DNA of 64,000 bases from Arthrobacter citreus. Lineage in GTDB: Bacteria; Bacillota; Bacilli; Bacillales; Bacillaceae_G. A program made the position numbers and the translations under genes. Where the stretch lies: the NCBI GenBank assembly GCA_013200995.1, contig CP053688.1:744001-808000 (forward strand). The letters run 5' to 3'. Positions 14,895-62,750 of this stretch are shown here, piece by piece (within the stretch, counting starts at the first letter, position 1; each line of letters opens with the position of its first letter). Under the pieces are notes generated by a model that did no database searches, was not told the DNA's origin, and saw nothing but the letters and a program-made list of their open reading frames with translations.

Positions 14895-14986
14895 CTTATG
14901 CAACTAACACATGCATTAGTTGAACAATGATCGACTGCTTCGGCGGCCTTTTTTATTGGACTAAATGGCAGAATAGTTGCATTAAG
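14895..14986 (+). repeat. CBR1, full length
   Basis: Left end CTTATGCAACTAACACATGC, core CATTAGTTGAAC, hairpin CGACTGC-TTCG-GCGGCC with T-run, AAATGGCAG box and right end TAGTTGCATTAAG. Serves as terminator of the gene at 14007. Confidence 0.9.
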
Positions 14987-15042
14987 TAATGCAGAAATTT
15001 TTATGGTATCTTATTAATAAATAGCATCTAAGGGGAGAGTAA

Positions 15043-15963
15043 ATGAGTTGGTCAAATTATGAAAAAGCATTAGCACTATTGGAACAAAACAAAGTTAATT
15101 GTGAATATATTGGTAAATGTTCAGACCTTATAATTGAAAAAGCTGAAATTGCTTTAGGATTGAAATTTCCCAACACCTATCGGCATTTTATTAGAAAATA
15201 TGGTGCAGGTGTTTTTGCGACATGGGATATATTAGGTATCACTAATGAAAACTTTTACGAATCATATAATCCAGACAATCCAGATGCAATTAGGTTCACA
15301 TTATCAAAAAGAAAAGAGAATAAATTACCTGATAACTTTATTACTATTATTGATTATGATTATGAAACCTTATATTGTTTGGATTTAAATAATCTCAATA
15401 ACGAAGGAGAGCCAGCAGTTGTTTCTTATGATATTGGCGAGAACTGGGGCAAACAAGAAATGATAGCAGAGGATTTAGGCGATTTTCTTTTAGATATTAT
15501 TCAAGGTGAGTTAGTAGCGTTAAAATTATCGCCAATTGAAATTATATATGATGTAGAGACTTTAAAAGGTTCATGTTATGTAGAAATTAAACCTGGGAAA
15601 GATACAGGCAATCATTGGAATAGAGACTCTATTTACTTTACAGATGAAACTTTCACCTATTTGTCTCGTGCCATTGAGAAGGAATTTAAAGACTATAGCC
15701 TTTGGGGAGTATGTGAAATAGATAAACATACTTGGGATTTAATTTTAAAACAATTAGAAAATGTGAAGCTTTTTTTATTAGAGGAACCAAAAGAAGAAGA
15801 ACTACAAACTATGGTCGGTTTTTTGTGGGAAGATACAGAATCGAAATTTCAAGAAAATATAAATCAAAATATTATCGACTTAATAAATCTAATCACAGAT
15901 TTTCAAGCATGGGTTAGCGATCAAAGTAAGAATCATGAGTTTATCACAATTTTAGGTATTTAG
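15043..15963 (+). CDS. SMI1/KNR4 (SUKH) domain protein
   Basis: A 306-residue soluble protein. Residues about 20-150 form a SMI1/KNR4 (SUKH-1) domain: the helical entry EIALGLKFPNTYRHFIRKYG, a glycine-rich turn, and the closing segment with GENWGKQEMIAEDLGDFL. SUKH proteins commonly serve as immunity proteins against contact-dependent or polymorphic toxins. The C-terminal half (150-306) is unassigned. No toxin gene is adjacent. ATG follows AAGGGGAGAG. Flanked by CBR1 and CBR2. Confidence 0.82.
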   Translation: MSWSNYEKALALLEQNKVNCEYIGKCSDLIIEKAEIALGLKFPNTYRHFIRKYGAGVFATWDILGITNENFYESYNPDNPDAIRFTLSKRKENKLPDNFITIIDYDYETLYCLDLNNLNNEGEPAVVSYDIGENWGKQEMIAEDLGDFLLDIIQGELVALKLSPIEIIYDVETLKGSCYVEIKPGKDTGNHWNRDSIYFTDETFTYLSRAIEKEFKDYSLWGVCEIDKHTWDLILKQLENVKLFLLEEPKEEELQTMVGFLWEDTESKFQENINQNIIDLINLITDFQAWVSDQSKNHEFITILGI

Positions 15964-15978
15964 ACATTAATTAAATGA

Positions 15979-16060
15979 CTATTCAACTAACTAATACGTT
16001 AGTTGAACAAAATCTCGAGTTGCATACGCAGCTATTGTGAAGTAAATGGCAGGAAGTGAA
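15979..16060 (+). repeat. CBR2, right end lost
   Basis: Left end CTATTCAACTAACTAATACG, core GTTAGTTGAACAA and hairpin are present and the AAATGGCAG box is kept, but the right inverted end is replaced by GAAGTGAAAAAATG, which forms the start region of the next gene. Confidence 0.8.
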
Positions 16061-16063
16061 AAA

Positions 16064-16498
16064 ATGTTCTTTTATTATTCAATGCTCATACTTGGAGCCT
16101 TGTTTGTAATAGCCACAGTAATTGCCTTTATTGGGATGTATCGTGATAAAAGCTATCCATTTTTAAGGGTTGGTAAGAGTCTTGGAATCTTATCATTTGG
16201 TGTTTTACTGTTAGCTTTTGCTCTCCCAAGTCTAAAAAATATTGTACTAAAGGAATATGTTGTTGTAAGTGGAAAATGTGTTATCGAAATAGATTCAGCC
16301 GGACGATCTAAGTTAGTGGACATTGAAATGCTCGATATAGATGAGATCTTTACCTTTAATAAAATTCCAACACTTGATGCTTATGGAAAGTCAACTCCTT
16401 ATTATTGTAACGTAACAGTTACAAAAGACCATTTGTTTGAAATTAATTATAAAATATATGATGACAAAACACGAAAGTTAATTTTAGCTGGTAAATAA
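16064..16498 (+). CDS. membrane-anchored protein, 144 aa
   Basis: Two N-terminal membrane spans (about 3-25 and 38-58) followed by a soluble domain of about 85 residues, probably extracytoplasmic. No family recognised. ATG at 16064 is chosen since AGGAAGTG lies five bases upstream; the in-frame ATG at 16046 belongs to the AAATGGCAG box of CBR2 and is unlikely to be the real start. Here the repeat itself contributes the ribosome binding site. Confidence 0.65.
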   Translation: MFFYYSMLILGALFVIATVIAFIGMYRDKSYPFLRVGKSLGILSFGVLLLAFALPSLKNIVLKEYVVVSGKCVIEIDSAGRSKLVDIEMLDIDEIFTFNKIPTLDAYGKSTPYYCNVTVTKDHLFEINYKIYDDKTRKLILAGK

Positions 16499-16540: not shown

Positions 16541-16620
16541 CTATTCAATTAACTTATGCTTTAGTTGAACAACAAGATCGGCTGTATAGTCAATTTTTTT
16601 TATTTAACAAAATGGCAGAA
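16541..16620 (+). repeat. CBR3
   Basis: CTATTCAATTAACTTATGC left end, core CTTTAGTTGAACAACAAG, hairpin ATCGGCTG...CAATTTTTTTT, and AAAATGGCAG box. The right inverted end is lost. Confidence 0.85.
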
Positions 16621-16648
16621 GAGGTGATTAAAAAGATTTAATAATGAC

Positions 16649-17542: not shown

Positions 17543-17554
17543 ATAGTTACCGTG

Positions 17555-17635
17555 CTTATGCAACTAACTGATGCGATTCTTCGATATCGAAGGATCGTTT
17601 TTTTATTCAAGTAAATGGCAGTTTAGTAGAATAAA
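17555..17635 (+). repeat. CBR5
   Basis: Left end CTTATGCAACTAACTGATGCG, hairpin GATTCTTCGATATCGAAGGATC with T-run, TAAATGGCAG box, and right end TTTAGTAGAATAAA. Confidence 0.9.
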
Positions 17636-18790: not shown

Positions 18791-18940
18791 AGAGGGTGGA
18801 ATGATGCGGAAATTTTTTGAGAGTATATATGATAATGTTAATTAGGTATTTTCATATATATGAAATTTATTTCACGAAAGATTGATTATTACTCTTTTGT
18901 GTATTATATTATTCATGAAAATGAAATTCGAGGTGATGTG

Positions 18941-19522
18941 ATGAATATTGGAATGGAAATAAAGAAATTGAGGACTGAAAAAGGTATTACTTTGAAAGAG
19001 TTAAGTGAAAAAAGTGAACTATCTATTGGATTTATATCTCAATTAGAAAGGGGACTGACTACAATAGCAGTTGATTCACTTGAAAAACTAGCTGATACTT
19101 TGGGGGTGCATTTAACACATTTTTTTGATTACCCACTTAAAAGGAATGATATGGTTTTGAGAAGTTATGAACAAGAAATAATGGATTCGGTAGAAGGAGG
19201 TTTTATTAAGTATAGTTTAAGTACAGATTTGGAAAATAAACAACTTGTTCCAAGGCTTATAGAAATTCTTCCTCAAAAGAAAGATGAAGAAATATTATCC
19301 TATAAGCATGAGGGAGAAGAGTTCGTATATGTTTTAGAGGGTATATTAACAGTTTACATAAATGATACGAGGCATGAAGTATATCCTGGTGACAGTATTC
19401 ATATGGACTCAAATATTGCACACAATTGGGCTAATTACACGAATAAAAAAGTCAAGCTTATAGCTGTTAATACGCCTAATTATCTCTACAATAGAGGATT
19501 TGATAATACAGATGCTGACTAG
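18941..19522 (+). CDS. XRE-family regulator with cupin domain
   Basis: A 193-residue transcription factor. The helix-turn-helix occupies residues 4-58 (LRTEKGITLKELSEKSELSIGFISQLERG region). A C-terminal cupin-2 barrel spans about 105-185 (HEGEEFVYVLEG, then VYPGDSIHMDSNIAHNWAN). This domain order is typical of PuuR/SutR-like regulators that sense small metabolites. ATG at 18941 follows GAGGTGATGTG. It lies just upstream of the EutH-like and aminopeptidase genes in the same direction and probably controls them. Confidence 0.88.
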   Translation: MNIGMEIKKLRTEKGITLKELSEKSELSIGFISQLERGLTTIAVDSLEKLADTLGVHLTHFFDYPLKRNDMVLRSYEQEIMDSVEGGFIKYSLSTDLENKQLVPRLIEILPQKKDEEILSYKHEGEEFVYVLEGILTVYINDTRHEVYPGDSIHMDSNIAHNWANYTNKKVKLIAVNTPNYLYNRGFDNTDAD

Positions 19523-19561
19523 TAAAGACATTATATAAATTAATAGAAAGTGATAATAACA

Positions 19562-20683
19562 ATGGATAAATTAATATTGTATTTAATTGGTTCTTTTTTT
19601 GTAATTGGAGCTATTGATTATATTACCGGAAATCATTTGAAACTGGGTGGGAAATTTGAGGAAGGCATAAAGACCATGGGGACTTTAGGGCTTGGAATGA
19701 TAGGAATAATTTCTTTAGTTCCTATATTTACAAATTTTTTATCTATTGTGATTATTCCAATCTGTAGAGTTTTTCATCTAGATCCCTCTATAGTTCCAGC
19801 AGCATTTTTAGCAGTAGATATGGGTGGCTATCAAATGGCTAATAAATTAGCATTGTCAGAGGAAATGGGATCATTTTCAGGAATCATCATTGCATCTACT
19901 TTAGGAGCCACAATTAGTTTTTCAATACCTGTCGCGTTAGGGATGCTTTCTAAAGAGGATGAAAAATATTTTTCTAAAGGTGTGTTGGTTGGAATTATTA
20001 CTATACCAATAGGATGTCTGTCAGCAGGCTTATGGCAAAAAATAAATATCAATCTATTAATTTTTAATCTGGTCCCTATATTTATTTTCGCCATTATTTT
20101 AGGGGTAGGAATATTAAAAGTTCCTCATGTTTTTATAAAAGTTTTTAATGTCTTTGGAAAGCTTATTGTAAGTTTGAGTACTGTTGGATTACTTTTACAA
20201 GGTATAAATGTGATATTTGGTGTAAGGCTTGTCTCAGGATTAGCACCACTTTCTGAATCTACTATTATAGTGGTCAAGATTGCACTTGTTTTAGGTGGAG
20301 CATATCCCATGTTAGCACTTATTAATCAAATCTTTAAAAATAGCTTTGAAAAAATAGGGGGGAAGTTTGGAATTAATTCAGTGTCAGTAGCAGGTATTTT
20401 AGGAAGCTTAGCTAGTAATTTGTTGATATTTGGAGCATTTAAGGAAATGAATCCTAAAGGAAAAATGGTATGTACTGCCTTTGGTGTAAGTGGAGCATTT
20501 GTATTTGGTGGTCAACTAGGATTTGTGTCAGGAGTAGCACCAGAAATGATAGGCGCATTTATAATATCAAAGCTTACAGCTGGAATCATTAGTATAGTAC
20601 TAGCTGTTTGGCTGTATGAACGTGAAAATAAAGAATTTAGTCTTAAAGAAAATGGAGGTATTAGTAATGAACATCAGAGATAG
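19562..20683 (+). CDS. EutH-like ethanolamine permease family transporter
   Basis: A 373-residue membrane protein with about ten spans. The conserved block FLAVDMGGYQMANKLA (near residues 77-92) and the GMIGIISLVPIF segment before it match the EutH ethanolamine utilisation family. No other eut gene (ammonia lyase, shell proteins) is nearby, so ethanolamine as substrate is only an inference. Linkage to an aminopeptidase P and a cupin regulator suggests uptake of another small amine or peptide product. The stop codon overlaps the next gene by 17 bases. Confidence 0.78.
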   Translation: MDKLILYLIGSFFVIGAIDYITGNHLKLGGKFEEGIKTMGTLGLGMIGIISLVPIFTNFLSIVIIPICRVFHLDPSIVPAAFLAVDMGGYQMANKLALSEEMGSFSGIIIASTLGATISFSIPVALGMLSKEDEKYFSKGVLVGIITIPIGCLSAGLWQKININLLIFNLVPIFIFAIILGVGILKVPHVFIKVFNVFGKLIVSLSTVGLLLQGINVIFGVRLVSGLAPLSESTIIVVKIALVLGGAYPMLALINQIFKNSFEKIGGKFGINSVSVAGILGSLASNLLIFGAFKEMNPKGKMVCTAFGVSGAFVFGGQLGFVSGVAPEMIGAFIISKLTAGIISIVLAVWLYERENKEFSLKENGGISNEHQR

Positions 20684-22445
20684 GGTCGAAAAGTTAAGGC
20701 AGCTAATGAAAGAAAATCAAGTGGATGCTTATATAATTCCAAGTTTTGATGCACATCAGAGTGAATATGTAGCGGAACATTGGAAATGTAGACAATGGAT
20801 ATCAGGATTTACAGGGTCTGCAGGTACTGTAGTTATTACATTAGAGGATGCTGGGTTATGGACAGATGGCAGATACTATATTCAAGCTGAAAAGCAGCTG
20901 GAGAACTCAGGAATCAGATTGTTTAGAATGATGGACCCAGAGGTACCATTTTATACAGAATGGCTAGCAGATATCCTTAAAGAAGGAAGTATTGTGGGCT
21001 TTGATGGAAATGTTTTTTCAATTAATATGGTTAAAAAGATGGAAAAAGATCTAAAAGCAAAGAGAATAGTATTAAAAATGAATCAAGATTTAATTGATGG
21101 TATATGGGCAGGTAGACCGGAAATTCCTAAAGGACAAATTTTTACACATGACGTAAAATATGCAGGCAAATCACGAGTAGAAAAATTAAATGAAGTAAGA
21201 GAAGAAATGAAAAATAAAGGAGGAAATTATTATATATTAACTTCACTTGATGACATTGCATGGCTTTTGAATATAAGAGGAGAAGATGTGCCTAACAATC
21301 CCATTTTAATAGCTAATGTAATCGTAGCAGAACAAAAATGTTATTTATTTATTGATTCTTGCAAGGTTTCCCCAGTGGTTAAATTAGAACTAGAAGCTGA
21401 TGGAATCGAGTTAAAAGCGAGTGATGAAATTCAAACATTATTGGAAAATCTTTTAGACGGAGATGCAGTTATTCTAGATACAAATAAAACAAATATCAGA
21501 TTATATAATGCCATTCACAACAATACAAAGAAAATTGAAAGCCCTAACATCACTACTAATTTAAAAGCTATTAAAAATGAAGTTGAGATAAAAAATTTAA
21601 AATGGTGTGAAATAAAAGATGGTTTAGCTATGGTAAAATTTATAAAATGGCTAAAAAACTCTGTAGATTATACAGAAATTACGGAGATTACTGCAGAAGA
21701 AAGATTAGAAGATTTCAGAAGGGAGCAGGAAGGATTTGTCGGACCTAGCTTTGATACGATAGCAGGTTATAAAGAACACGCGGCGATGATGCATTATAAA
21801 GCTAATAAAGAAACCCAATATACGCTCAAGAATGAAGGTCTTTTTTTAATTGATTCAGGTGGGCAATACTATGATGGAACAACAGATGTTACAAGAACGA
21901 TTGTTTTAGGAAAACTTACCGACGAACAAAAAAGAGATTTTACTTTGGTGTTAAAAGGGTTTATTGCATTAAGCTCAGTAAAATATTTATACGGAGCAAC
22001 AGGCTCTAACTTAGATGTTTTAGCAAGACAACCGATTTGGCAGTATGGTTTGGACTATAAATGTGGGACTGGACATGGGGTAGGTTTTTTCTTAAATGTT
22101 CATGAAGGACCACAAAGCATAAGGAATGATAATAATAATGTTATTTTAGAAAAAGGTATGGTTATTACGAATGAACCGGGAATATACCTCGAGGGTAAAT
22201 ATGGAATTAGAATTGAAAACATGATGTTAGTAGTTGAAGACGAGAAAACAGAGTTTGGCCAATTTATGAAGTTTGAAGCAATCACGTATTGCCCTATTGA
22301 TTTAGCCGGTATAAATAAAGATATGTTAACAGAGAGTGAAAAGCAATGGTTAAACAATTATCATCAAGAGGTATTTACAAAGCTGGGTCCTTATTTAAAT
22401 GAAGAAGAAAGAGAATGGCTAAAGGATGAAACAAGGGAAATATAA
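20667..22445 (+). CDS. long-form aminopeptidase P (M24 peptidase)
   Basis: A 592-residue Xaa-Pro aminopeptidase. It has two N-terminal creatinase-like domains (start MNIRDRVEKLRQLM; YIIPSFDAHQSEYV; WTDGRYYIQAEKQL) and a C-terminal M24 catalytic domain. The metal ligands are seen in FLIDSGG then TTDVTRT (two Asp), GTGHGVGFFLNVHEGP (His), NEPGIY (Glu) and RIENM (Glu). The length matches the XPNPEP1-type family with three domains, longer than E. coli PepP. ATG at 20667 is taken because GGAGG is seven bases upstream; the frame extends to 20616 without a ribosome site. Confidence 0.9.
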   Translation: MNIRDRVEKLRQLMKENQVDAYIIPSFDAHQSEYVAEHWKCRQWISGFTGSAGTVVITLEDAGLWTDGRYYIQAEKQLENSGIRLFRMMDPEVPFYTEWLADILKEGSIVGFDGNVFSINMVKKMEKDLKAKRIVLKMNQDLIDGIWAGRPEIPKGQIFTHDVKYAGKSRVEKLNEVREEMKNKGGNYYILTSLDDIAWLLNIRGEDVPNNPILIANVIVAEQKCYLFIDSCKVSPVVKLELEADGIELKASDEIQTLLENLLDGDAVILDTNKTNIRLYNAIHNNTKKIESPNITTNLKAIKNEVEIKNLKWCEIKDGLAMVKFIKWLKNSVDYTEITEITAEERLEDFRREQEGFVGPSFDTIAGYKEHAAMMHYKANKETQYTLKNEGLFLIDSGGQYYDGTTDVTRTIVLGKLTDEQKRDFTLVLKGFIALSSVKYLYGATGSNLDVLARQPIWQYGLDYKCGTGHGVGFFLNVHEGPQSIRNDNNNVILEKGMVITNEPGIYLEGKYGIRIENMMLVVEDEKTEFGQFMKFEAITYCPIDLAGINKDMLTESEKQWLNNYHQEVFTKLGPYLNEEEREWLKDETREI

Positions 22446-22469: not shown

Positions 22470-22688
22470 ATTAAATTAGATAGATTTATTCTATCTACAT
22501 TTGGTGTATTATTACTGATTGGAATATTTTTAAATAATATCTATTTTTGGATTGTTGTAGGATTGTTATCAATTATTATTGGTGTAACAAGAATAGTTAT
22601 TAAATTAGTAAGTATGAGAAAAAAAGTATATTCTAATTTGAATTATTATTTTACGTTTATTCAACTAAAGCATGCGTTAGTTGCATAG
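22470..22688 (+). CDS. small membrane protein running into CBR7
   Basis: A 72-codon frame with no standard start. Its N-terminus (KLDRFILSTFGVLLL) resembles the products at 43341 and 44303, which start with TTG at the same place; here that codon reads ATT, preceded by AATAAGG. There are two hydrophobic segments. The last codons (IQLKHALVA) and the TAG come from the left half of CBR7. It is either a gene with a rare start or a decaying paralogue. Confidence 0.45.
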   Translation: MKLDRFILSTFGVLLLIGIFLNNIYFWIVVGLLSIIIGVTRIVIKLVSMRKKVYSNLNYYFTFIQLKHALVA

Positions 22689-22714
22689 CTGCAGACTACT
22701 TAGGTAGTCTTTTT
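22657..22714 (+). repeat. CBR7, split by a group II intron
   Basis: Left end TTATTCAACTAAAGCATGCG, core GTTAGTTGCATAG, and hairpin AGACTAC-TTAG-GTAGTCTTTTT. The intron begins directly after the T-run. Past the intron TTTGCTAACTG at 24889 is a poor remainder of the right part. Confidence 0.8.
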
Positions 22715-24887
22715 GTGCGACGGGCAGTCGCATAGGGTGCTGACCTAGTCAGCACCCTTCAATCATTTTAACTAGACAGAGACGACACTTCGGTGTAACG
22801 ACTGGACGAAGGATAAAATTATGAATTCCAGATGGTGAAAATCCATACTCGAGGAGACTGACCTAGCTCGAGAAGTCTAATCTAGGGCATTATCGCGAGG
22901 TATTGTCTGAAGGAGATGCGGTAAATCGAGAGACCCGTAGACGAAAAGATAGACCCTAATGCAAGAAGTGTGAAGCACGGCGGCGGGATAAGTTGGTGAC
23001 TCTGCGAAAAGTGAGGAAACCCACTAAAACGGCATTTTCTTTAGAAGTCAGAGCGAGAAAATGTGGCTTATAACGTGATGGTGCAGGGTATGTCTTGAAG
23101 GAAAATGCGATGACCCCGTGAGGTCTCCACCTTACCGAACAGGCAGGGTTCTAATCTATAAGGGCAATCCGAAGTGATGAAGAACGGGTGGAGAAGTCAG
23201 ACGTTCTCATAGTACGGAAGTAGTTCGATGACCATAACATTGAATGAACGGAAGGGGAACGACCTATGGCTCCAAGTCATGGACGAGATGGAATGTCAAC
23301 AATCAAGTTACTGAGGTAAAACCGTTTGAATGAACATCAAGGAAAGGCATGGAATATGTAATGAATCAAGAGTGGAAATTTAAATTACACAGTGTTTATG
23401 GTCAATTATTATTCGACCGTAAATTAACAAAAAGCTTCGAACAAGTAAAAGCGAATAAAGGTACAGGTGGAATTGACGGAGAATCAATCGAAAGTTATGA
23501 ATCTAACTTGAATGGAAATATTTTGTCATTACTTGAAAAGTTAAGAACGAAAACCTACAAAGCACAACCAGTCAAAAGAGTATACATACCTAAGAAAAAT
23601 GGAAAGAAACGACCATTGGGAATTCCGACAATTCAAGACCGTATTGTTCAACAGAGTTTAGTAAATGTGTTACAACCAAAATTTGAGGATCTACTGTTTC
23701 ATAATTGGTCAGTAGGATATCGACCAAATCGAGGAGTTCAAAGAGCCCTTCAAATAATCTTATGGAATATAGAACAGGGATATAATCATATATACGATTG
23801 TGATATAAAAGGCTTCTTCGATAATATTCCACATAAGAATCTAATCGGAATATTAAAGAAATACGTCTCGGACCGAACGGTCCTTAGTCTCATAGAACAA
23901 TGGTTAAAGGTTGGACACATGGAAGAAGGAAAACTGATTCATTCTGACTACGGGACTCCTCAAGGTGGAGTAATTTCACCATTACTAGCAAATGTCTATC
24001 TTAATGAATTGGATTGGGAATGGGATTTGAATGGTATTCGCTTCGTTCGTTACGCAGATGATTTTCTTTTATTTGCGAAATCAAAAGAATTAATCGAAAA
24101 AGCAGCGTCCTTAACTAAAGAAAAGTTGAAAGAGTTAGGATTAGAGATTTCAAAAGAGAAAACTAGAGTAGTCAACTTTGAGAAGGACGATTTCGATTTC
24201 CTAGGTTTTACATTTCATCATTGGAGACCGAATAAGAAAGTTAATAAACCTATATTTCATGTGACACCTAAGGAAGAATCAATCAAAGACTTTCGATTGA
24301 AAATTAAAGAAAAGACTCGAAAGACTTTAACTCTGAGCAAAGAAGAATGGGTTAGTCGTGTGAATCCAATTATACGTGGAAAAGTCAATTATTATGTGAC
24401 AATCATCAAAGCGATTAAGGCTAATGAAGAACTAGGTCAGACAAGTCATTGTATTACCAGATGGACGAGAAATCGACTTCGAAATCTAGATGGATACATA
24501 AGAAGGCGACTGCGAGTAGCCTTTATTCATAAACATCCAACCCAAAGAAAAGGGGATAAAATGAATAGTTTATGGAATAACTCATTCTTTCTAAAGACTA
24601 ACCTAATCCCATCTTATTGGCTTTACTTAAATAAAGCTTTCGGCTACACAAAAGAACAATATTTAAATGACATGAAGAAAACAACTAAACGCAACATACA
24701 TACAAGGATTAAAAGAGAAAGAGAAAAGGGAAAAGAATATTACAACCCTATTCGTCTCCAAAAGATGCAAAATGCCTGGAATGCATCCTCTTGATAAACA
24801 CTACAACATATGGGTAAGCCGTATGCCTTAATTGGGCAAGTACGGTTTGATAAGGGGGAAGTCTCGTGAGAGATTTCCCTACTTTAT
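22715..24887 (+). mobile_element. group II intron, copy 1 (2173 nt)
   Basis: The 5' end is GTGCGACGGG and the 3' end CTACTTTAT. Both ends are fixed by comparison with the seemingly identical copy at 53575-55747. Domain V is near 24816-24848 (AAGCCGTA/TACGGTTT with the AGC triad). Domain IV holds a reverse transcriptase/maturase ORF without endonuclease domain. It sits right behind a hairpin plus TCTTTTT, the type of site used by class C bacterial introns. Intron class is inference. Confidence 0.92.
23349..24794 (+). CDS. group II intron reverse transcriptase/maturase
   Basis: A 481-residue LtrA-type protein. RT blocks are seen in order: GTGGIDG (about 35-41), PLGIPTIQDRIVQQ (about 92-105), YDCDIKGFFDNI (about 143-154), GTPQGGVISPLLANVYL (about 203-219) and the catalytic YADDF (about 236-240). 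A maturase X region follows (DFLGFTFHHWR, then RGKVNYY). No HNH endonuclease is attached; the protein ends soon after the maturase region. It drives splicing and retrohoming of its own intron. ATG follows AAGGAAAGG. Confidence 0.95.
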   Translation: MEYVMNQEWKFKLHSVYGQLLFDRKLTKSFEQVKANKGTGGIDGESIESYESNLNGNILSLLEKLRTKTYKAQPVKRVYIPKKNGKKRPLGIPTIQDRIVQQSLVNVLQPKFEDLLFHNWSVGYRPNRGVQRALQIILWNIEQGYNHIYDCDIKGFFDNIPHKNLIGILKKYVSDRTVLSLIEQWLKVGHMEEGKLIHSDYGTPQGGVISPLLANVYLNELDWEWDLNGIRFVRYADDFLLFAKSKELIEKAASLTKEKLKELGLEISKEKTRVVNFEKDDFDFLGFTFHHWRPNKKVNKPIFHVTPKEESIKDFRLKIKEKTRKTLTLSKEEWVSRVNPIIRGKVNYYVTIIKAIKANEELGQTSHCITRWTRNRLRNLDGYIRRRLRVAFIHKHPTQRKGDKMNSLWNNSFFLKTNLIPSYWLYLNKAFGYTKEQYLNDMKKTTKRNIHTRIKREREKGKEYYNPIRLQKMQNAWNASS

Positions 24888-25652: not shown

Positions 25653-25743
25653 ATATGCATCTAGAGCATGCATTAGTTGAACAACCTTTAAGCTGCTTCG
25701 GTAGCTTTTTTTCTTATTCAAGTATGGCAGTTTTGTTGAATAA
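25653..25743 (+). repeat. CBR8
   Basis: Left end altered (ATATGCATCTAGAGCATGC), core CATTAGTTGAACAAC, hairpin AGCTGC-TTCG-GTAGCT with T-run, AGTATGGCAG box, and right end TTTTGTTGAATAA. Confidence 0.82.
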
Positions 25744-25821
25744 TCATTACCAGAAATATGATAAAATTTCTAGTAATGATTATTTTTAAAACAAATTCTT
25801 ATGGATATAATTGGAGAAAAA

Positions 25822-25989
25822 ATGAAAAAAATTAATGGCTCGAATATATTCTTATGCCTTGGCGTTTTTGCACTTGTCATTAGTATACTCACATTTTTAA
25901 CAGATCATATTGGATGGTCTATTTACTTTTTCATATTATTAATTACTGATATTGTATTGTTTTTAAATTTAAAAAGAAAAGGTCGATAA
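25822..25989 (+). CDS. small membrane protein, 55 aa
   Basis: Two hydrophobic segments separated by a short loop (NIFLCLGVFALVISILTFL and IYFFILLITDIVLFL), then a basic tail. It resembles small two-span Bacillus membrane proteins of unknown role. ATG at 25822 is directly preceded by TTGGAGAAAAA; an in-frame ATG at 25801 lacks a site. The next gene starts two bases after its stop, so the two are co-transcribed. Confidence 0.6.
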   Translation: MKKINGSNIFLCLGVFALVISILTFLTDHIGWSIYFFILLITDIVLFLNLKRKGR

Positions 25990-25991
25990 AT

Positions 25992-26222
25992 ATGATTATT
26001 AATGAAGATTTCTTTTATTTTTTAGGTTTTTTCCTAATTGGATACTTCCAAATACATATGGTTATATTCGTTAGAAAGAAAGATTTTTTATATGGGGAAA
26101 AATATAAAAGATTGAGAGATATGTTCTATCCTCTACCAGATATAGTTTCCTATTGGTTTTCTAAAATTAGCTTATTATTACTGGGTAGCTTTTTTATTTT
26201 CATTAGCTTCTATACATATTAA
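25992..26222 (+). CDS. small membrane protein, 76 aa
   Basis: A 76-residue protein with an N-terminal span (about 8-25), a basic middle (YGEKYKRLRDMF) and a C-terminal span (about 52-73). No family recognised. It has AAAAGGTCGATAAAT upstream and is coupled to the 55-residue gene before it; one of the few two-gene units of the array. The CBR9 left end begins 33 bases after the stop. Confidence 0.6.
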   Translation: MIINEDFFYFLGFFLIGYFQIHMVIFVRKKDFLYGEKYKRLRDMFYPLPDIVSYWFSKISLLLLGSFFIFISFYTY

Positions 26223-26255
26223 TAATCTAACATTTAGGATTTGATCATAGTATTT

Positions 26256-26335
26256 CTTACTCAACTAACTGATGCGATACTTAAATAGAAGATCGCATTT
26301 TCTTATTCAACAAAATGGCAGTTTAGTTGCATAAG
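26256..26335 (+). repeat. CBR9
   Basis: CTTACTCAACTAACTGATGCG, hairpin GATGCGATAC...GATCGCATTTTC, TTATTCAACAAAATGGCAG and right end TTTAGTTGCATAAG. Nearly identical to CBR27 at 43134. Confidence 0.92.
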
Positions 26336-26483
26336 GAATGTGAAAAAGAATTCACTTAGATATTCTGATTTGATAAAATTGAATTACCAGAATAATCATT
26401 ATACATGAGAATGCGTTAATAGTAATTGATTATTAAATTAAAGTTTTATTTAAAAATATAATAAATTATTAAGGAAAAGGTTT

Positions 26484-26753
26484 ATGAAATATATAAAATT
26501 TTTTATTTTTCAGTTCATACTAATTAGTTGTATTATAAGCATAGGTTTTTATGCTGAAAAGTATCACAACGCACCAGATATAACTCGGATATTCCTTGGA
26601 ATTTTACAGGTACCACTTTTTATTCTAATTTTTAAAGTTTATGGTCGTTTCAAATTTAAAAGTAAAAGAATAAAAATAATGTTAACAATGTTTTCTGGAA
26701 TTTCATCTACATTAATTATAGGTATGATTTTTGGTCAAGTATTATACAACTAA
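26484..26753 (+). CDS. small membrane protein, 89 aa
   Basis: An 89-residue protein with three hydrophobic segments (about 5-23, 32-52, 66-86) and a basic loop between the last two. No family recognised. AAGGAAAAGG precedes the ATG. Its stop codon TAA lies inside the left end of CBR10 (TTATACAACTAAC), so the repeat ends the reading frame. Confidence 0.6.
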   Translation: MKYIKFFIFQFILISCIISIGFYAEKYHNAPDITRIFLGILQVPLFILIFKVYGRFKFKSKRIKIMLTMFSGISSTLIIGMIFGQVLYN

Positions 26754-26834
26754 CTGATGCATTAGTTGAACAACAAGATCGGCTGTTTAGTCGATTTTTT
26801 TTTATACTTCAAAATGGCAGTTTAGCTGCATAAG
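26742..26834 (+). repeat. CBR10, overlapping a stop codon
   Basis: TTATACAACTAACTGATGC, CATTAGTTGAACAACAAG, hairpin ATCGGCTGTTTAGTCGAT with T-run, AAAATGGCAG, and right end TTTAGCTGCATAAG. Confidence 0.92.
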
Positions 26835-27010
26835 GAAGGGACTTATTGGGATTAAATAGAATATATTAAAATGTCTAAAATTTGTTGAAATAAGAAGTTA
26901 TATAAATGCTTATTTCAGCCTGCCAAAAATCTAATCAAACTACTGTTACGATGTTAAAAAGTGCAAAATAAAAGACCCCTATTAAGAGATCATTTTCAGC
27001 TATTCTAATA

Positions 27011-27518: not shown

Positions 27519-27610
27519 CTAATCCAACTAAAGCGTGCATTAGTTGAACAACAAGAACGGCTGCTAAGTCGATTTTTTTTATTAAACAAAATGGCATATT
27601 AGTTGCATAA
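27519..27610 (+). repeat. CBR11
   Basis: GCTAATCCAACTAAAGCGTGC left end, CATTAGTTGAACAACAAG, hairpin AACGGCTG...AGTCGATTTTTTTT, AAAATGGCA box, and right end TTAGTTGCATAA. Confidence 0.88.
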
Positions 27611-28197: not shown

Positions 28198-28205
28198 ACC
28201 TTGTT

Positions 28206-49068: not shown

Positions 49069-49109
49069 GAATGATACAATTATTCATATACTAAGGGGTG
49101 GTGTTTAAC

Positions 49110-49733: not shown

Positions 49734-49756
49734 AATCAACTTGAATTTAAAAGGTT

Positions 49757-49848: not shown

Positions 49849-49897
49849 AATGTAGAAACTTACATTAAAAAATACTAAGAAATAGGGGATTAACTAA

Positions 49898-50162: not shown

Positions 50163-50255
50163 CCTTATGTAACTAACGCATGCATTAGTTGAACAACAAG
50201 ATCGGCTGTTTAGTCGATTTTTTTATTCAACAAAATGGCAGATTAGTTGCTTAAG
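50163..50255 (+). repeat. CBR36
   Basis: CCTTATGTAACTAACGCATGC, CATTAGTTGAACAACAAG, hairpin ATCGGCTGTTTAGTCGAT with T-run, AAAATGGCAG, and right end ATTAGTTGCTTAAG. Confidence 0.92.
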
Positions 50256-50349
50256 AAAAAAGGAAAAAAGATTCAATAAATTGAAGTAAATAAAGTGAAG
50301 TAGGTACAATGCTGGTTTAATTAATCTTAATACATAAAGGTGGTTTATT

Positions 50350-50799: not shown

Positions 50800-50805
50800 T
50801 ATTTC

Positions 50806-50900
50806 TTCTTCAACTACTATGGGAGTACGTTATAAACTTCCATTTACTGTTGTGAATCTAAGGATTCATGGATGGCTAACGCATGCGTTAGTTGAACAAA
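50806..50900 (+). repeat. CBR37, short form with 60-bp insert
   Basis: CTTCTTCAACTA, insert TATGGGAGTACGTTATAAAC...GATTCATGGATGG, then CTAACGCATGCGTTAGTTG and AACAAATT. Downstream GATGATGATCGGCTCC may be a remnant of the hairpin. Confidence 0.88.
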
Positions 50901-51032
50901 TTAATTAGTCGATGATGATCGGCTCCTATTTAAGTATTTGCATTATTTTTCATATAAAAATAAATATGGTCACAATGAAATGGTATCATTAACTATACTT
51001 TTAAATTAAGAAATGATAGGAAGTTTATTAAA

Positions 51033-51690: not shown

Positions 51691-51732
51691 AAAGTTAATA
51701 TTTTAAATTATGATTCAACTTTATCATATGCT

Positions 51733-51824
51733 CTTATTCAACTAACGCATGCTTTAGTTGAACAACCTTATCGGCTATTTAGCCGATTTTTTTGTGGAAC
51801 TAAATGGCAGTTTAGTTAATCTAG
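51733..51824 (+). repeat. CBR39
   Basis: CTTATTCAACTAACGCATGC, CTTTAGTTGAACAACC, hairpin ATCGGCTATTTAGCCGAT with T-run, AAATGGCAG, and right end TTTAGTTAATCTAG. Confidence 0.9.
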
Positions 51825-52127: not shown

Positions 52128-52133
52128 GGATTT

Positions 52134-52230
52134 CTTATTCAACTAGTGTGGGACTACCGTATAAACTTCCATTCACTGTTATGAATCTGAGGATTCATGG
52201 ATGGCTAACGCATTGCTTTAGTTGAACTAA
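52134..52230 (+). repeat. CBR40, short form with 60-bp insert
   Basis: CTTATTCAACTA, insert GTGTGGGACTACCGTATAAAC...GATTCATGGATGG, then CTAACGCATTGC and CTTTAGTTGAACTAA. Confidence 0.88.
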
Positions 52231-52249
52231 GACGCAAGGAGGAAATAGA

Positions 52250-53574: not shown

Positions 53575-55747
53575 GTGCGACGGGCAGTCGCATAGGGTGC
53601 TGACCTAGTCAGCACCCTTCAATCATTTTAACTAGACAGAGACGACACTTCGGTGTAACGACTGGACGAAGGATAAAATTATGAATTCCAGATGGTGAAA
53701 ATCCATACTCGAGGAGACTGACCTAGCTCGAGAAGTCTAATCTAGGGCATTATCGCGAGGTATTGTCTGAAGGAGATGCGGTAAATCGAGAGACCCGTAG
53801 ACGAAAAGATAGACCCTAATGCAAGAAGTGTGAAGCACGGCGGCGGGATAAGTTGGTGACTCTGCGAAAAGTGAGGAAACCCACTAAAACGGCATTTTCT
53901 TTAGAAGTCAGAGCGAGAAAATGTGGCTTATAACGTGATGGTGCAGGGTATGTCTTGAAGGAAAATGCGATGACCCCGTGAGGTCTCCACCTTACCGAAC
54001 AGGCAGGGTTCTAATCTATAAGGGCAATCCGAAGTGATGAAGAACGGGTGGAGAAGTCAGACGTTCTCATAGTACGGAAGTAGTTCGATGACCATAACAT
54101 TGAATGAACGGAAGGGGAACGACCTATGGCTCCAAGTCATGGACGAGATGGAATGTCAACAATCAAGTTACTGAGGTAAAACCGTTTGAATGAACATCAA
54201 GGAAAGGCATGGAATATGTAATGAATCAAGAGTGGAAATTTAAATTACACAGTGTTTATGGTCAATTATTATTCGACCGTAAATTAACAAAAAGCTTCGA
54301 ACAAGTAAAAGCGAATAAAGGTACAGGTGGAATTGACGGAGAATCAATCGAAAGTTATGAATCTAACTTGAATGGAAATATTTTGTCATTACTTGAAAAG
54401 TTAAGAACGAAAACCTACAAAGCACAACCAGTCAAAAGAGTATACATACCTAAGAAAAATGGAAAGAAACGACCATTGGGAATTCCGACAATTCAAGACC
54501 GTATTGTTCAACAGAGTTTAGTAAATGTGTTACAACCAAAATTTGAGGATCTACTGTTTCATAATTGGTCAGTAGGATATCGACCAAATCGAGGAGTTCA
54601 AAGAGCCCTTCAAATAATCTTATGGAATATAGAACAGGGATATAATCATATATACGATTGTGATATAAAAGGCTTCTTCGATAATATTCCACATAAGAAT
54701 CTAATCGGAATATTAAAGAAATACGTCTCGGACCGAACGGTCCTTAGTCTCATAGAACAATGGTTAAAGGTTGGACACATGGAAGAAGGAAAACTGATTC
54801 ATTCTGACTACGGGACTCCTCAAGGTGGAGTAATTTCACCATTACTAGCAAATGTCTATCTTAATGAATTGGATTGGGAATGGGATTTGAATGGTATTCG
54901 CTTCGTTCGTTACGCAGATGATTTTCTTTTATTTGCGAAATCAAAAGAATTAATCGAAAAAGCAGCGTCCTTAACTAAAGAAAAGTTGAAAGAGTTAGGA
55001 TTAGAGATTTCAAAAGAGAAAACTAGAGTAGTCAACTTTGAGAAGGACGATTTCGATTTCCTAGGTTTTACATTTCATCATTGGAGACCGAATAAGAAAG
55101 TTAATAAACCTATATTTCATGTGACACCTAAGGAAGAATCAATCAAAGACTTTCGATTGAAAATTAAAGAAAAGACTCGAAAGACTTTAACTCTGAGCAA
55201 AGAAGAATGGGTTAGTCGTGTGAATCCAATTATACGTGGAAAAGTCAATTATTATGTGACAATCATCAAAGCGATTAAGGCTAATGAAGAACTAGGTCAG
55301 ACAAGTCATTGTATTACCAGATGGACGAGAAATCGACTTCGAAATCTAGATGGATACATAAGAAGGCGACTGCGAGTAGCCTTTATTCATAAACATCCAA
55401 CCCAAAGAAAAGGGGATAAAATGAATAGTTTATGGAATAACTCATTCTTTCTAAAGACTAACCTAATCCCATCTTATTGGCTTTACTTAAATAAAGCTTT
55501 CGGCTACACAAAAGAACAATATTTAAATGACATGAAGAAAACAACTAAACGCAACATACATACAAGGATTAAAAGAGAAAGAGAAAAGGGAAAAGAATAT
55601 TACAACCCTATTCGTCTCCAAAAGATGCAAAATGCCTGGAATGCATCCTCTTGATAAACACTACAACATATGGGTAAGCCGTATGCCTTAATTGGGCAAG
55701 TACGGTTTGATAAGGGGGAAGTCTCGTGAGAGATTTCCCTACTTTAT
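53575..55747 (+). mobile_element. group II intron, copy 2 (2173 nt), inside a gene
   Basis: Same length and apparently same sequence as copy 1 at 22715. It follows the hairpin ATCCAT-TTTTT-ATGGAT and TCTTTTT, which mimics the terminator at the other site. Removing exactly these bases rejoins codon 105 with the downstream frame, so splicing would restore the host protein. Confidence 0.93.
54209..55654 (+). CDS. group II intron reverse transcriptase/maturase, copy 2
   Basis: A 481-residue protein identical to the one at 23349-24794: RT blocks GTGGIDG, YDCDIKGFFDNI, GTPQGGVISP and YADDF, then the maturase region, no endonuclease domain. The identity of the two copies over their full length means either recent retrotransposition or gene conversion. 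Its activity would also be needed for the host gene in which it resides. Confidence 0.95.
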   Translation: MEYVMNQEWKFKLHSVYGQLLFDRKLTKSFEQVKANKGTGGIDGESIESYESNLNGNILSLLEKLRTKTYKAQPVKRVYIPKKNGKKRPLGIPTIQDRIVQQSLVNVLQPKFEDLLFHNWSVGYRPNRGVQRALQIILWNIEQGYNHIYDCDIKGFFDNIPHKNLIGILKKYVSDRTVLSLIEQWLKVGHMEEGKLIHSDYGTPQGGVISPLLANVYLNELDWEWDLNGIRFVRYADDFLLFAKSKELIEKAASLTKEKLKELGLEISKEKTRVVNFEKDDFDFLGFTFHHWRPNKKVNKPIFHVTPKEESIKDFRLKIKEKTRKTLTLSKEEWVSRVNPIIRGKVNYYVTIIKAIKANEELGQTSHCITRWTRNRLRNLDGYIRRRLRVAFIHKHPTQRKGDKMNSLWNNSFFLKTNLIPSYWLYLNKAFGYTKEQYLNDMKKTTKRNIHTRIKREREKGKEYYNPIRLQKMQNAWNASS

Positions 55748-56446: not shown

Positions 56447-56546
56447 GCATTGAATGATACTGTAAAAATCCAATTATGATACTGGATAATAGTATGAGAA
56501 AAAGTCATTGTTTAAAATCAATTCCACAAATTATTATTATTCATTT

Positions 56547-56639
56547 CTTGTTGAACTTATGCTCAACGATGGTTGAAGATCACAAGCTGCATATATGCAG
56601 CTTTTTTTATTTAAGTATAAGGCAGTAAAGTTCAATAAG
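56547..56639 (+). repeat. CBR43
   Basis: CTTGTTGAACTTATGC, CTCAACGATGGTTGAAGATC, hairpin AAGCTGCATATATGCAGCTT with T-run, box AAGGCAG, and right end TAAAGTTCAATAAG. Confidence 0.85.
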
Positions 56640-56660
56640 AAGCTTCCTTTAAAAAATGAA

Positions 56661-58289: not shown

Positions 58290-58688
58290 ATGATAAAGTC
58301 TATCGCTAAACCCAAAATTCCTAAAAACTATAACTACATTTTAAAGACTAGTCAATTAGAAGAAATATTGATACAAAATAAATGTACAATTCATGTTGAT
58401 TTGGATTATTGGTTACCTCAAAAAATTGGAAGTATCTTTGAAGTCCATTTTTGGTTGCCTAATTCTAATGTTCCATACAAGCGTTTATATATTAGAGCAG
58501 GAGCCTTACAAAATAAAGATGTAAAAGTGGCAAGGGAAGTAATGACAAGTACTGTTTTTCCAGAATTTCATAAATGGCTGCAATTTTATTTGAAATTACC
58601 CGTAAATGCACCTCAACTTTTTAATACGCCTTATTTTTGTGCAGTATTTGAAAATAATAAAGTTAAGTTTTTATCGAATTCTTATTGA
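58290..58688 (+). CDS. unknown soluble protein, 132 aa
   Basis: A basic soluble protein with a strand-rich middle (NKCTIHVDLDYWLPQKIGSI; RLYIRAGALQNKD) and KWLQFYLKLPVN near the end. No family recognised. ATG follows TTGGAAGGAGCTGATTAG. Its stop codon TGA lies inside the left end of CBR46 (CTTATTGAACTAAC). Confidence 0.6.
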   Translation: MIKSIAKPKIPKNYNYILKTSQLEEILIQNKCTIHVDLDYWLPQKIGSIFEVHFWLPNSNVPYKRLYIRAGALQNKDVKVAREVMTSTVFPEFHKWLQFYLKLPVNAPQLFNTPYFCAVFENNKVKFLSNSY

Positions 58689-58712
58689 ACTAACGCATGC
58701 GTTAGTTGCAAT
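58681..58712 (+). repeat. CBR46, short form overlapping a stop codon
   Basis: CTTATTGAACTAACGCATGC and GTTAGTTGCAATATGG. Contains the perfect 20-bp palindrome AACTAACGCATGCGTTAGTT. Hairpin and box absent. Confidence 0.9.
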
Positions 58713-60363: not shown

Positions 60364-60435
60364 CTTCTTCAAAAAACTGATGCTTTATTTGTACAAAATT
60401 ATCGGCTGTTTAGTCGATTTTTTTATTTAAAAGAT
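60364..60435 (+). repeat. CBR48, right end lost
   Basis: CTTCTTCAAAAAACTGATGC, CTTTATTTGTACAAA, and hairpin ATCGGCTGTTTAGTCGAT with T-run. The box and right end are eroded. Confidence 0.8.
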
Positions 60436-60516
60436 AAAAATCCCACAAATTACTAAAGCTGTAAGGTTAGTTATAATTTAACTAATACGATTTGTTCTAT
60501 TAACGGAGGTGTTATT

Positions 60517-60714
60517 ATGCTTTGGTCGATATTGATAGATGTTATCTTGTTGTTATTTACAATTACTTATTTTGTTAAAACTTTTTTAAATGGATTCATG
60601 AATAAAATGACTTTTAAAGAAATTATTAAATCAAATTACTTTTTGATGTTATTTTATTTACTTATTCTTTATCCTATAATTATCAAGGATTTCATCCGAT
60701 ATTTATTAAAATAA
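60517..60714 (+). CDS. small membrane protein, 65 aa
   Basis: Two membrane spans (about 4-20 and 43-58) joined by a basic loop (NGFMNKMTFKEIIKSN). ATG follows AACGGAGGTGTTATT. No family recognised. Last gene of the array before the intron-split CBR49. Confidence 0.6.
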   Translation: MLWSILIDVILLLFTITYFVKTFLNGFMNKMTFKEIIKSNYFLMLFYLLILYPIIIKDFIRYLLK

Positions 60715-60765
60715 AACAGAAATGATGTAAAAGATATTAATTGGAAACTATTATAATTTCAAAAT

Positions 60766-60787
60766 CTTATACAACTAACGCATGCTT
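60766..60787 (+). repeat. CBR49, left part, split by intron B
   Basis: CTTATACAACTAACGCATGC and TT; the intron begins at the next base. After it TAGTTGTATAGTTCAAC (62728-62745) continues the core. This is the last copy seen. Confidence 0.87.
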
Positions 60788-62727
60788 GTGCGGCCGAGCA
60801 TAGGTCGTATCATATAACGGGTGGGATTCCCGTCGAGTAAGAACTAGCCATTCGCTCGTAGCGAGTCTTGGAGGGCTAAAGGTAACTTTAGTCTTTAAGC
60901 GTAGACAGTTAGATGGCGGGCCGAAAGCCAAATGGTTGAAGGGATTGAGCTTCGAAATGTTAGTAAATCGAGAGGGCTGATGCCTTAAGCATAGCAGAAA
61001 GCTACATTTTACCTTTCGTTAAAGGCAAGAAAGGTAAAACCTCTCCGGAGTCAGAGACCTTGGCACGTTATACATTGATATGATACGGCAACTCGGGAGA
61101 CCCTACCGGTCTTTTCTTTTTTTTAGAAGAGTATGGTGTACAAACGATAAAAAGTGAGGAAACCAAATGCCGATGTAGGGAGTCGGATAGTAGCGTAGTA
61201 CCTATGAAGTTGGGTAATGCCGATGGAGGAAAGGCTACTACCAGTTTATCACCCTTAATAGGGACACATTTACTACACGCAGAGGTAGGTATAACAAATG
61301 GAAACAAAACTACTAAGGATAGCAGAAGTAGCAAAATCTGATCCTAAAATGCAATTTACATCTCTTGCACATTTATTAGATAAGCAATCACTAGTTCAAT
61401 GTCACATTGAATTACCACATAAGAAAGCAACTGGGATAAATGGCACAACTAAAGAACAATACAGTGATAATCTCAAAGAAAATATAGAGGATTTAGTAAG
61501 GAGACTTAAAAGCAAAAGCTATCGTCCTGTTCCAGTTAGGAGAATGTATATTCCGAAGCTCAATTCGAAGAAGAAAAGACCACTAGGTATACCGGAACAT
61601 GAAGATAAGATTGTTCAAAAAGGTGTTACGAAAATATTAAACTCCATCTATGAAATTGACTTCCTGGACTGTTCGTTCGGATTTCGCCCAAATCGTAGTT
61701 GCCACGATGCTTTGAAAATACTGAACTTCTATATTGAAAAGAGGTCAGTAAACTATGTAGTTGATGTAGACATAAAAGGCTTCTTTGACAACGTTGACCA
61801 CAAATGGATGATGGAATTCTTAAAACTGCGAATCGCTGACCCAAACTTACTAAGAATAATAGGTAGGTTTCTTAAAGGTGGATACATGGAAGAAGGAAAG
61901 AAATACAAAACAGATAATGGTACACCGCAAGGTGGTGTAATATCTCCTGTATTAGCTAATGTGTATCTTCATTATGTACTCGACTTATGGTTTGAGAAAA
62001 GTGTTAAGAAACAGTGCGAGGGACAAGCATACCTAGTAAGGTATGCAGATGATTATGTGTGCTGTTTTCAATTTAAGAATGAGGCTCAGGAATTCTTTCA
62101 ATCTCTAAAATTAAGACTCAAGAAGTTTAATCTGGAAATAGCCGAAGATAAAACCAAAATTATTCCTTTCGGGCGGCTTGCGGAGAAACTTGGAAAGCAT
62201 CAGGGAAATGGAAAACCAGAAACCTTCGATTTTCTAGGTTTTACGCACTATTGCGGGAAAAGTAAACAAGGAAAGTTTCGAGTGAAACGGAAATCAAGTA
62301 GGAAGAAAGTACAAAGTAAAGTAAAAGAGTCTAAAGAATGGTTGAAGAAGAATAGAAATAATAATATTCATATAATCATGGACAGATTCAAACGCTCGCT
62401 TATAGGCTACTTCAACTACTATTGCATCACTGATAATATTCCAAATGTTAACATTTTCAAAGTTAAAATCGAGAACTTAGTATTTAAATGGCTCAATAGA
62501 AGAAGTCAAAGGAAATCCTTTAAATGGGAGAAATTCAGACTATTTCTTGATAAATTTCCACTACCCTCTCCGAGGATTAAGGTGAATATTTATGATTTAA
62601 GAAAAGAAATTAGCTACATTATGTAAATGATTACTGGAGGAGCCGTGTGCATTAATAGTGCAAGCACGGTTCTGAGAGGGTTTGGAGTGCAATTTACCGC
62701 AAGGTAAAGAGACTCCATTCTACTCGA
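60788..62727 (+). mobile_element. group II intron B (1940 nt), full length
   Basis: Begins GTGCGGCCGAGC and ends ATTCTACTCGAC. Domain V is at about 62640-62672 (GAGCCGTGTGC/GCAAGCACGGTTC). A maturase ORF lies in domain IV. It sits at the same place of a CBR as the ORF-less copy A, between GCATGCTT and TAGTTG. Confidence 0.93.
61298..62626 (+). CDS. group II intron reverse transcriptase/maturase
   Basis: A 442-residue LtrA-type protein, of another lineage than the two 481-residue copies. RT blocks: GINGTTKEQY (about 46), RPLGIPEHEDKIVQKG (about 94), VDVDIKGFFDNVDH (about 145), GTPQGGVISPVLANVYLH (about 208) and VRYADDYVCCF (about 246). The maturase region (DFLGFTHYCGKSKQG, then RSLIGYFNYY) follows. 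No endonuclease domain. It may serve intron A in trans as well. Confidence 0.95.
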   Translation: METKLLRIAEVAKSDPKMQFTSLAHLLDKQSLVQCHIELPHKKATGINGTTKEQYSDNLKENIEDLVRRLKSKSYRPVPVRRMYIPKLNSKKKRPLGIPEHEDKIVQKGVTKILNSIYEIDFLDCSFGFRPNRSCHDALKILNFYIEKRSVNYVVDVDIKGFFDNVDHKWMMEFLKLRIADPNLLRIIGRFLKGGYMEEGKKYKTDNGTPQGGVISPVLANVYLHYVLDLWFEKSVKKQCEGQAYLVRYADDYVCCFQFKNEAQEFFQSLKLRLKKFNLEIAEDKTKIIPFGRLAEKLGKHQGNGKPETFDFLGFTHYCGKSKQGKFRVKRKSSRKKVQSKVKESKEWLKKNRNNNIHIIMDRFKRSLIGYFNYYCITDNIPNVNIFKVKIENLVFKWLNRRSQRKSFKWEKFRLFLDKFPLPSPRIKVNIYDLRKEISYIM

Positions 62728-62750
62728 CTAGTTGTATAGTTCAACAGAAA

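Follow-up and report, generated by a model that had tools for sequence, protein, structure and literature searches.

A cassette-like array of mostly single-gene units between paired palindromic sites in a Gottfriedia chromosome, and a tyrosine recombinase family linked to its sister arrays

The window analysed here is a stretch of 64,000 nucleotides, positions 744,001 to 808,000 of the chromosome (C1) of a Gottfriedia strain, a relative of Bacillus whose 5.47-Mb genome also comprises a 250-kb contig, C2. From 13917 to 62738 it is occupied by an array of 47 gene units lying between copies of two small palindromic sites, A and B; the sites and most of the genes are on the plus strand, as are all the repeats, cassettes and introns whose coordinates in the window are given below. 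We consider it likely, with a probability of about 0.8, that this array serves as a platform for gene cassettes, most of them a single gene held between A and B sites, and that these are moved by a tyrosine recombinase family that differs from the integron integrase IntI and is found in sister arrays. In what follows, G000 is the window's own genome, other G numbers designate other genomes, and L numbers designate loci of about 20 kb.

A profile model refined from 281 near-full copies recognizes 44 repeats of about 95 bp in the window (E <= 1e-3), 43 on the plus strand and one on the minus strand, the latter call being a palindrome that consists of box A only. An earlier note on this DNA had counted about 49 copies of what it took for a single palindromic repeat. 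The repeat is real, but a full copy is actually made of two palindromic sites around an intrinsic terminator: box A, a 33-bp palindrome with arms of about 12 bp and an 8-bp centre; a terminator of variable sequence; and box B, a second 33-bp palindrome, whose centre differs from that of box A. The order in full repeats is gene-A-terminator-B, the outward arm being the better conserved one in both boxes, and places with A only or B only interrupt the strict alternation of the two. When the 33-bp sites are sought singly, 69 are found in the window (32 A and 32 B on the plus strand, and five palindromic A sites called on the minus strand), all of them within 13900-62740, with none in the remainder of the window and none in each of 20 dinucleotide shuffles. 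The same scan finds 717 single sites in 45 of 52 loci; its control consists of the shuffles and the rest of the window, the site-free loci having been known beforehand to be empty of repeats. Between 42,000 and 60,500, terminator-like hairpins are in excess (22, compared to 5.8, standard deviation (sd) 2.7, in shuffles), while promoter-like sites show no enrichment (80, compared to 103.9). The array had been placed at 14895-62748, where it indeed lies, but it starts about 1 kb earlier, with a site made of box B only (13917-13949). The unit from this site to 14895 recurs in G009 (L182) with 96.7% identity, the match ending at both sites. The first full repeat follows at 14895-14984 (box A 14895-14927, terminator, box B 14953-14985), and two more repeats lie beyond the window, at C1:815,967-816,036 and 816,896-816,987.

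The alternation of repeats with mostly single genes, described in the earlier note, is borne out. The 47 gene units (at least 150 bp between sites) have a median length of 614 bp, and 45 of them hold a longest open reading frame (ORF) of at least 60 codons, read along the repeat strand in 37 of the 45; a second ORF of at least 100 codons is present in only 7 of the 47. The cassette products include SUKH, DinB, GNAT, SnoaL and DCC1 proteins, a dehydrogenase and a hydrolase, and many have no Pfam match. Typical examples are the cassettes for a SUKH (SMI1/KNR4) protein (15043-15963) and a GNAT acetyltransferase (27676-28197); a multi-gene exception is the unit 18860-22445, with genes for a regulator, an EutH-like protein and an M24 peptidase. 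None of ten window cassette proteins matched an anti-phage family in PADLOC.

The repeat is not confined to the window. Further copies lie on C1 near 0.60, 0.62, 2.99, 3.29, 4.96 and 5.20 Mb and on C2 at 126-184 kb, in each place mostly in the same orientation, as judged from the matches listed, 40 of 198 first-look candidates having been scored. In the 45 repeat-holding loci, which were picked for holding repeats or recombinases, 448 of 479 repeats are on the majority strand of their own locus. A BLAST query with the consensus repeat finds a match in all 12 other genomes of the genus and in 17 of 40 genomes altogether, the own genome included. Five genomes of the same family that belong to two other genera (G013, G014, G016, G017 and G018) give 0, 0, 1, 2 and 0 matches, and G015, from a third genus, gives 24. 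The search of the genome and its relatives that had been proposed as a check of the cassette idea has brought to light more arrays; the outcome that would have spoken against that idea, copies spread evenly over the chromosome in both orientations, is not seen in the genome-wide list drawn from those 40 scored candidates. C2, a possible plasmid, shows only partial matches to large Bacillaceae plasmids, covering at best 25% of the query among the matches listed. Particularly dense arrays, with up to 33 repeats per 20 kb and a box A centre specific to the genome, are present in G001 (L171-L177) and G008 (L189); these also hold box-A-only sites, some of them followed soon after by a likely ribosome-binding site and a start codon.

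Comparison of array with array revealed shared segments that end in repeats. L048:12,642-13,604 and L049:10,289-11,251 are 97% identical, with a repeat-free core of 823 bp that is 100% identical. The window unit 45336-45689 recurs on C2 (L046) at 97.7% identity, among other neighbours; its left end is a box-A-only site (45334-45369) and its right end the box A of a full repeat (45657-45749), the terminator of which is not in common. A unit of about 2.6 kb on C2 (L045:3,827-6,458) is found in another genus (L103) with 96.8% identity over 2,634 columns. The unit 25658-26275, which starts in the full repeat 25654-25743, is common to the C2 array (L044; 89.6%), and the GNAT cassette is common to the array at C1:5.196 Mb (L050; 85%), its left and right ends lying in the full repeats 27519-27610 and 28205-28299. 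Since pairing cassettes through two full repeats gave only four pairs, a site-based boundary test was used instead, which counts a segment end if, in each of the two copies, a site is no more than 8 bp away. This holds for 67 of 289 ends; positions drawn independently at random would give 0.55, and positions drawn at random inside the same segments give 12.9 of 298. Group II intron copies end in sites for another reason (see below); with these excluded, the count is 59 of 235, compared to 0.44 and to 10.2 (sd 3.1) of 244, respectively. About three quarters of the shared-segment ends lie elsewhere or have a recognized site in one copy at most.

The position of the boundary inside the site can be read from the identity profile of pairs whose cores are at least 84% identical, four right-end and 11 left-end intron pairs and the pairs of an A with a B site being left out. 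In the 22 pairs with a right end on box A, excess identity amounts to +0.63/+0.68 for the left arm, +0.30 for the centre and -0.07/0.00 for the right arm. The 18 pairs with a left end on box A give approximately the mirror image: +0.08 outside, -0.23/-0.73 in the left arm, +0.38 in the centre, +0.07 in the inner and +0.62 in the outer right arm, and +0.57 beyond, so that identity is still at background level in the inner right arm and sharing becomes clear only from the outer half. This was interpreted as meaning that exchange takes place inside the site, in or near the centre. Moreover, the downstream terminator is not shared in any of nine gene units aligned by eye, whose left ends fall in box B or in a box A. 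The exception is another pair, L049 and window 48,635-49,070, which have the entire downstream repeat (48977-49070) in common, the right boundary being at box B. The C2 unit of L045 ends in a B centre and its 96.8% relative in an A centre, suggesting that one unit end can join unlike centres. Taken together, these comparisons support the proposal, already made in the earlier note, that the repeat serves a cassette system as its recombination site. Repeat-bounded units are common to arrays and species, and the gene units appear separable from the terminator 3' of them. A rule by which neighbouring sites would share centre bases was also tried and rejected: neighbours do share them, though not to a greater extent than randomly chosen copies from that locus (0.652 versus 0.70; same genome, 0.611), which points to a genome- or locus-specific type of centre.

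As had been claimed, no integrase lies in the window: none of the 12 Phage_integrase genes of the genome is in it or in the next 20 kb, and the recombinase that was to be sought at one end of the array is not in this array, but a recombinase family is present in the sister arrays. One of the 12 genes (the L033 type), on C2 (L044:7788-8666), sits amid repeats on the opposite strand. It encodes a tyrosine recombinase of about 280 residues, whose named relatives at 78-96% identity come from Gottfriedia species and Bacillus strains. Close relatives (77-93% identity) occupy repeat-holding loci in three other Gottfriedia genomes, making five loci in all; G011 has a partial copy (L107) and G003 a related match (L095). 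In a segment common to C2 and G004, the order is box A, terminator, reversed recombinase gene, box B, as if the recombinase filled the place of a terminator module. The family counts at least 2,655 proteins at E <= 1e-30 (7,998 candidates scored) and, at E <= 1e-80, is present in 51 of 299 Bacillales genomes and 28 of 116 genera.

Its association with the repeat extends to other genera. The Gottfriedia repeat model, applied unchanged to 21 loci around family members in other genera (L117 and L151-L170), finds 53 repeats of at least 12 bits, 48 of which are opposite to the recombinase strand; five shuffles of these loci gave no opposite-strand repeat. The 48 are distributed over 15 of the 21 loci, the five same-strand repeats are all in L117 and L168, and L151, L164, L169 and L170 have none at this threshold. 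A B site upstream of the recombinase gene is significant in 17 of 33 loci (p <= 0.02), at 49-57 bp in the clearest cases. Downstream, an A site is significant in 15 of the 33 (p <= 0.02), again in the clearest cases at 34-42 bp. The corresponding figures around other tyrosine recombinases are 0 of 10 and 0 of 10. A Sporosarcina psychrophila plasmid (L191) shows both the upstream B and the downstream A. The recurrent position of the gene is thus opposite in strand and flanked by one A and one B site. No repeats are present in seven loci that hold other types of tyrosine recombinase (L096-L101 and L106). Two of the loci examined are unusual in other ways: L094:8220-12384 (G001) carries four tandem tyrosine recombinases and only two repeats in its 20 kb, and L117:11897-14737 (Bacillus massilionigeriensis) has direct repeats of its own, of a different kind, near the family recombinase and a second, partial recombinase match.

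Judged from its sequence, the array-linked recombinase is not IntI. It scores 93 bits with the integron integrase model, for a cut-off of 265, and reaches no equivalog cut-off for XerC, XerD or XerA either (213.8 versus 220 for archaeal XerA; 203.5 versus 329.6 for XerD). IntI enzymes are marked by an extra insertion in the catalytic domain; the insertion of several dozen residues seen in IntI1, aligned alongside, is absent from the family. In a quick FastTree tree, the family forms a separate clade (support 1.0), while IntI, represented by one shortened variant, clusters with the Xer proteins (0.93); used as a query on the own genome, IntI ranks two Xer-like genes first. The predicted structure (predicted local distance difference test (pLDDT) 78.5; predicted template-modelling score (pTM) 0.53, domain placement being uncertain) is closest to XerA and XerD (4a8e, 1a0p, 5hxy), with IntI4 (2a3v) in 11th place. 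Archaeal XerA and XerD are thus the closest solved structures by sequence and fold, but the family stays just under the XerA equivalog cut-off and has its place in cassette arrays, the Xer genes being present besides.

The arrays nevertheless resemble integrons in several respects. Like integrons and the clusters of attC sites lacking integron-integrases (CALIN), they are long and read in one orientation, and their units mostly hold one gene each and are functionally unrelated, with two core-like sites per repeat, group II introns in sites, and a recombinase gene on the opposite strand beside a site, some arrays being without recombinase. A true integron would have an IntI-type enzyme, and each whole repeat would be an attC folded as a single-strand hairpin, with exchange in the R' box. 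Such a reading accounts for the R''-L''-spacer-L'-R' layout, for consensus strands that both fold better than shuffles (z -6.0 and -4.4), and for a recombinase divergent from the array with a site about 55 bp upstream in the clearest loci, the upstream B site being attI-like. The ends of the repeat had been said to misfit the attC R box, which is mostly right for individual copies (RYYYAAC 70/229, GTTRRRY 61/221, both 14/203), but the R boxes of the consensus fit both motifs. What makes this explanation improbable, besides the enzyme, is the lack of covariation that a folded attC-like substrate, as proposed in the earlier note, should leave: among 248 non-redundant copies, the observed R''-R' pairing is reached by 196 of 500 shuffles and the L''-L' pairing by 309 of 500, and between a cassette's start and its own 3' arm covariation is seen at one position only (p=0.02). 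Three window copies folded on the minus strand give z values of -2.7, -1.65 and -0.75, and units that otherwise come as one gene plus one site do not carry the terminator along in the nine eye-aligned cases, the L049/window pair apart. Inside box A and inside box B, pairing of the palindrome is slightly above that of shuffles (11 and 5 of 500 shuffles, respectively, reach the observed value). The covariation result thus favours simple double-stranded sites, as in dif modules, although the conserved arms leave few variable pairs. A terminator within full repeats and boundaries in simple sites further set these arrays apart from integrons, as does the host order, Bacillales. In the IntegronFinder 2.0 paper, integrons are called extremely rare in Firmicutes, where one complete integron (Limnochorda pilosa) and a few CALIN are reported (PMC9024848). 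The first proposal, that the system is not of the known integron type, is supported by the linked recombinase not being IntI.

Somewhat less probable still is a dif-module system driven by the host XerC and XerD, as in Acinetobacter plasmids. The Xer-like recombinases of the genomes examined could serve it, and the arrays do have two alternating kinds of module, with mostly one gene in each gene module, set off by small palindromes that are inversely related and vary in their centre. On the other hand, the arms of A and B are, by inspection, unlike those of C1:1122270-1122297, which we take to be the host chromosomal dif-like site (one mismatch to the B. subtilis sequence). Five genomes (G013, G014, G016, G017 and G018) have 0-2 repeat matches, though Xer-like genes were found in G013, G014 and G016, the three searched, and a dedicated recombinase recurs in the arrays. 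According to a published description of dif modules, two module types, which have to alternate, are bounded by inversely oriented small sites with a variable 6-bp spacer (PMC13141974). The modules and sites found here are alike in this; the differences are the dedicated recombinase, the 8-bp centre, unit ends found joined to differing centres, tens of units in a chromosome, and a terminator as one of the two module types. Partner sites in dif modules require spacers that are identical or nearly so. We give least credit, and very little, to a mobile repeat, like bcr1 or a miniature inverted-repeat transposable element (MITE), or a terminator repeat that merely spread between genes, with homologous recombination producing the shared segments. 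Terminators and group II introns in the repeats and the existence of copies with only box A or box B would suit it; shared segments that stop inside sites at both ends, repeats that are clustered and strand-biased, and their presence beside one recombinase family across genera would not.

Several observations weigh against a cassette platform served by this recombinase family. Recombination itself is deduced from sequence and was not observed. Boundaries at B sites (8 pairs) are blurred; the pairs are partly dependent, several coming from the same loci, and among the 122 intron-free segments, 25 join parts of a single locus and may include tandem repeats. Centre bases follow the locus and not adjacency, and no rule for the choice of partner is seen. 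As to the enzyme, two of the five Gottfriedia recombinase loci are poor in repeats (one in the 20 kb of L105, three in L092), six of the 21 loci of other genera (L117, L151, L164, L168, L169 and L170) have no opposite-strand repeat of at least 10 bits, those of L117 and L168 sharing the recombinase strand, and a significant A or B flank is missing from about half of the 33 recombinase loci. In three repeat-bearing Gottfriedia genomes (G009, G010 and G011) no intact family member was found, which means either that arrays outlive the enzyme or that another recombinase acts. Other recombinase types also occur near repeats (one in L052, two in L094, three in L104, seven in L102), so that the absence of repeats elsewhere does not by itself rule out these recombinases.

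The cassette-platform reading nevertheless remains the best explanation of sites that are clustered and strand-biased, of unit boundaries inside sites, and of units common to the chromosome, C2 and another genus. The recombinase would bind the two arms of about 12 bp of each site and exchange strands around the 8-bp centre, on double-stranded DNA. Two kinds of module would alternate: gene modules, bounded by the outer, better conserved arm of a B on one side and of an A on the other, and terminator modules, bounded by the inner arm of either box. Each gene would be insulated by the terminators. If the recombinase gene takes the position of a terminator module, the B site upstream of it would serve for entry, as the counterpart of attI. 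Without a recombinase of its own, the window array would depend on the C2 copy. By the features tested, the array is not an integron, though it works like one, and it has its module logic in common with dif modules. We lean slightly, at little better than even odds, towards a wider proposal: that this is a counterpart of the integron which Bacillales evolved independently, in which the family of about 280 residues moves genes and terminators as two alternating modules through paired double-stranded sites, with the recombinase in the terminator slot. If so, cassette shuffling would have a second origin, the family being present in about one sixth of the sampled Bacillales genomes, and Gram-positive bacteria would have a widespread gene-shuffling system of their own and a new genetic tool for such hosts. 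The system is directly testable, since enzyme, sites and predicted exchange point are named. A search of titles and abstract starts in the open-licence literature, a weak test of absence, found no published account of it.

Four group II introns of two types (Rfam matches RF02001 and RF02005) are inserted in the window array. The RF02001-type intron, which has a reverse transcriptase, lies at 22715-24882 (ends set by eye), just 3' of a terminator, and breaks the repeat 22657-22721. Its second copy, at 53575-55742, is 100% identical over 2181 bp and follows another terminator. With a third place (L050:10631-12814), identity is 99.9-100% over about 2.18 kb, which suggests recent movement. The RF02005-type intron splits box A between centre and right arm, at 40836-41506 (without reverse transcriptase ORF; ends by eye) and at 60788-62728 (reverse transcriptase ORF 61298-62626), in the same place of another box A, as the last array element of the window. 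The place of insertion is fixed in five copies from three genomes, and a sixth copy is in L049. This suggests that the sites are special DNA, as attC is for some IIC introns. In a published account of group IIC introns, such introns sit just after terminators, as the RF02001 type does here, or lodge in attC, as the RF02005 type does in a recombination site (PMC4424553). The target here, however, is the edge between centre and right arm of box A; the two types are named after their Rfam matches.

Other repeats recognized by the model include full copies at 16542-16631 and 17554-17634 (both A-terminator-B), 26255-26337, 26742-26836 (near consensus), 29566-29657, 33966-34060, 35461-35541, 36405-36501, 37372-37463, 39605-39689 (variant left arm), 40110-40200, 42050-42140, 43133-43214, 44095-44187, 49756-49850, 50163-50256 (the top-scoring copy of the window), 51732-51824 and 56546-56640, a box A only at 58680-58710, also found by the site scan, and the last copy of the window at 60364-60430. 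The one at 33966-34060 is the right end of a segment common to L047 and L050 (94-95% identity), which contains an IS110-family transposase as two separate ORFs (32576-33727) and keeps the same unusual left arm in both. Another transposase ORF pair inside the array, on the minus strand (37885-39071), has rve and HTH_Tnp_1 domains and is IS3-like. Finally, an element of about 104 bp is present in four copies in the window (39531-39634, 48558-48661, 50802-50905 and 52131-52234, 74-88% identical to the first); it seems to hold a variant left arm of box A, and similar arms occur in L094 and L044.

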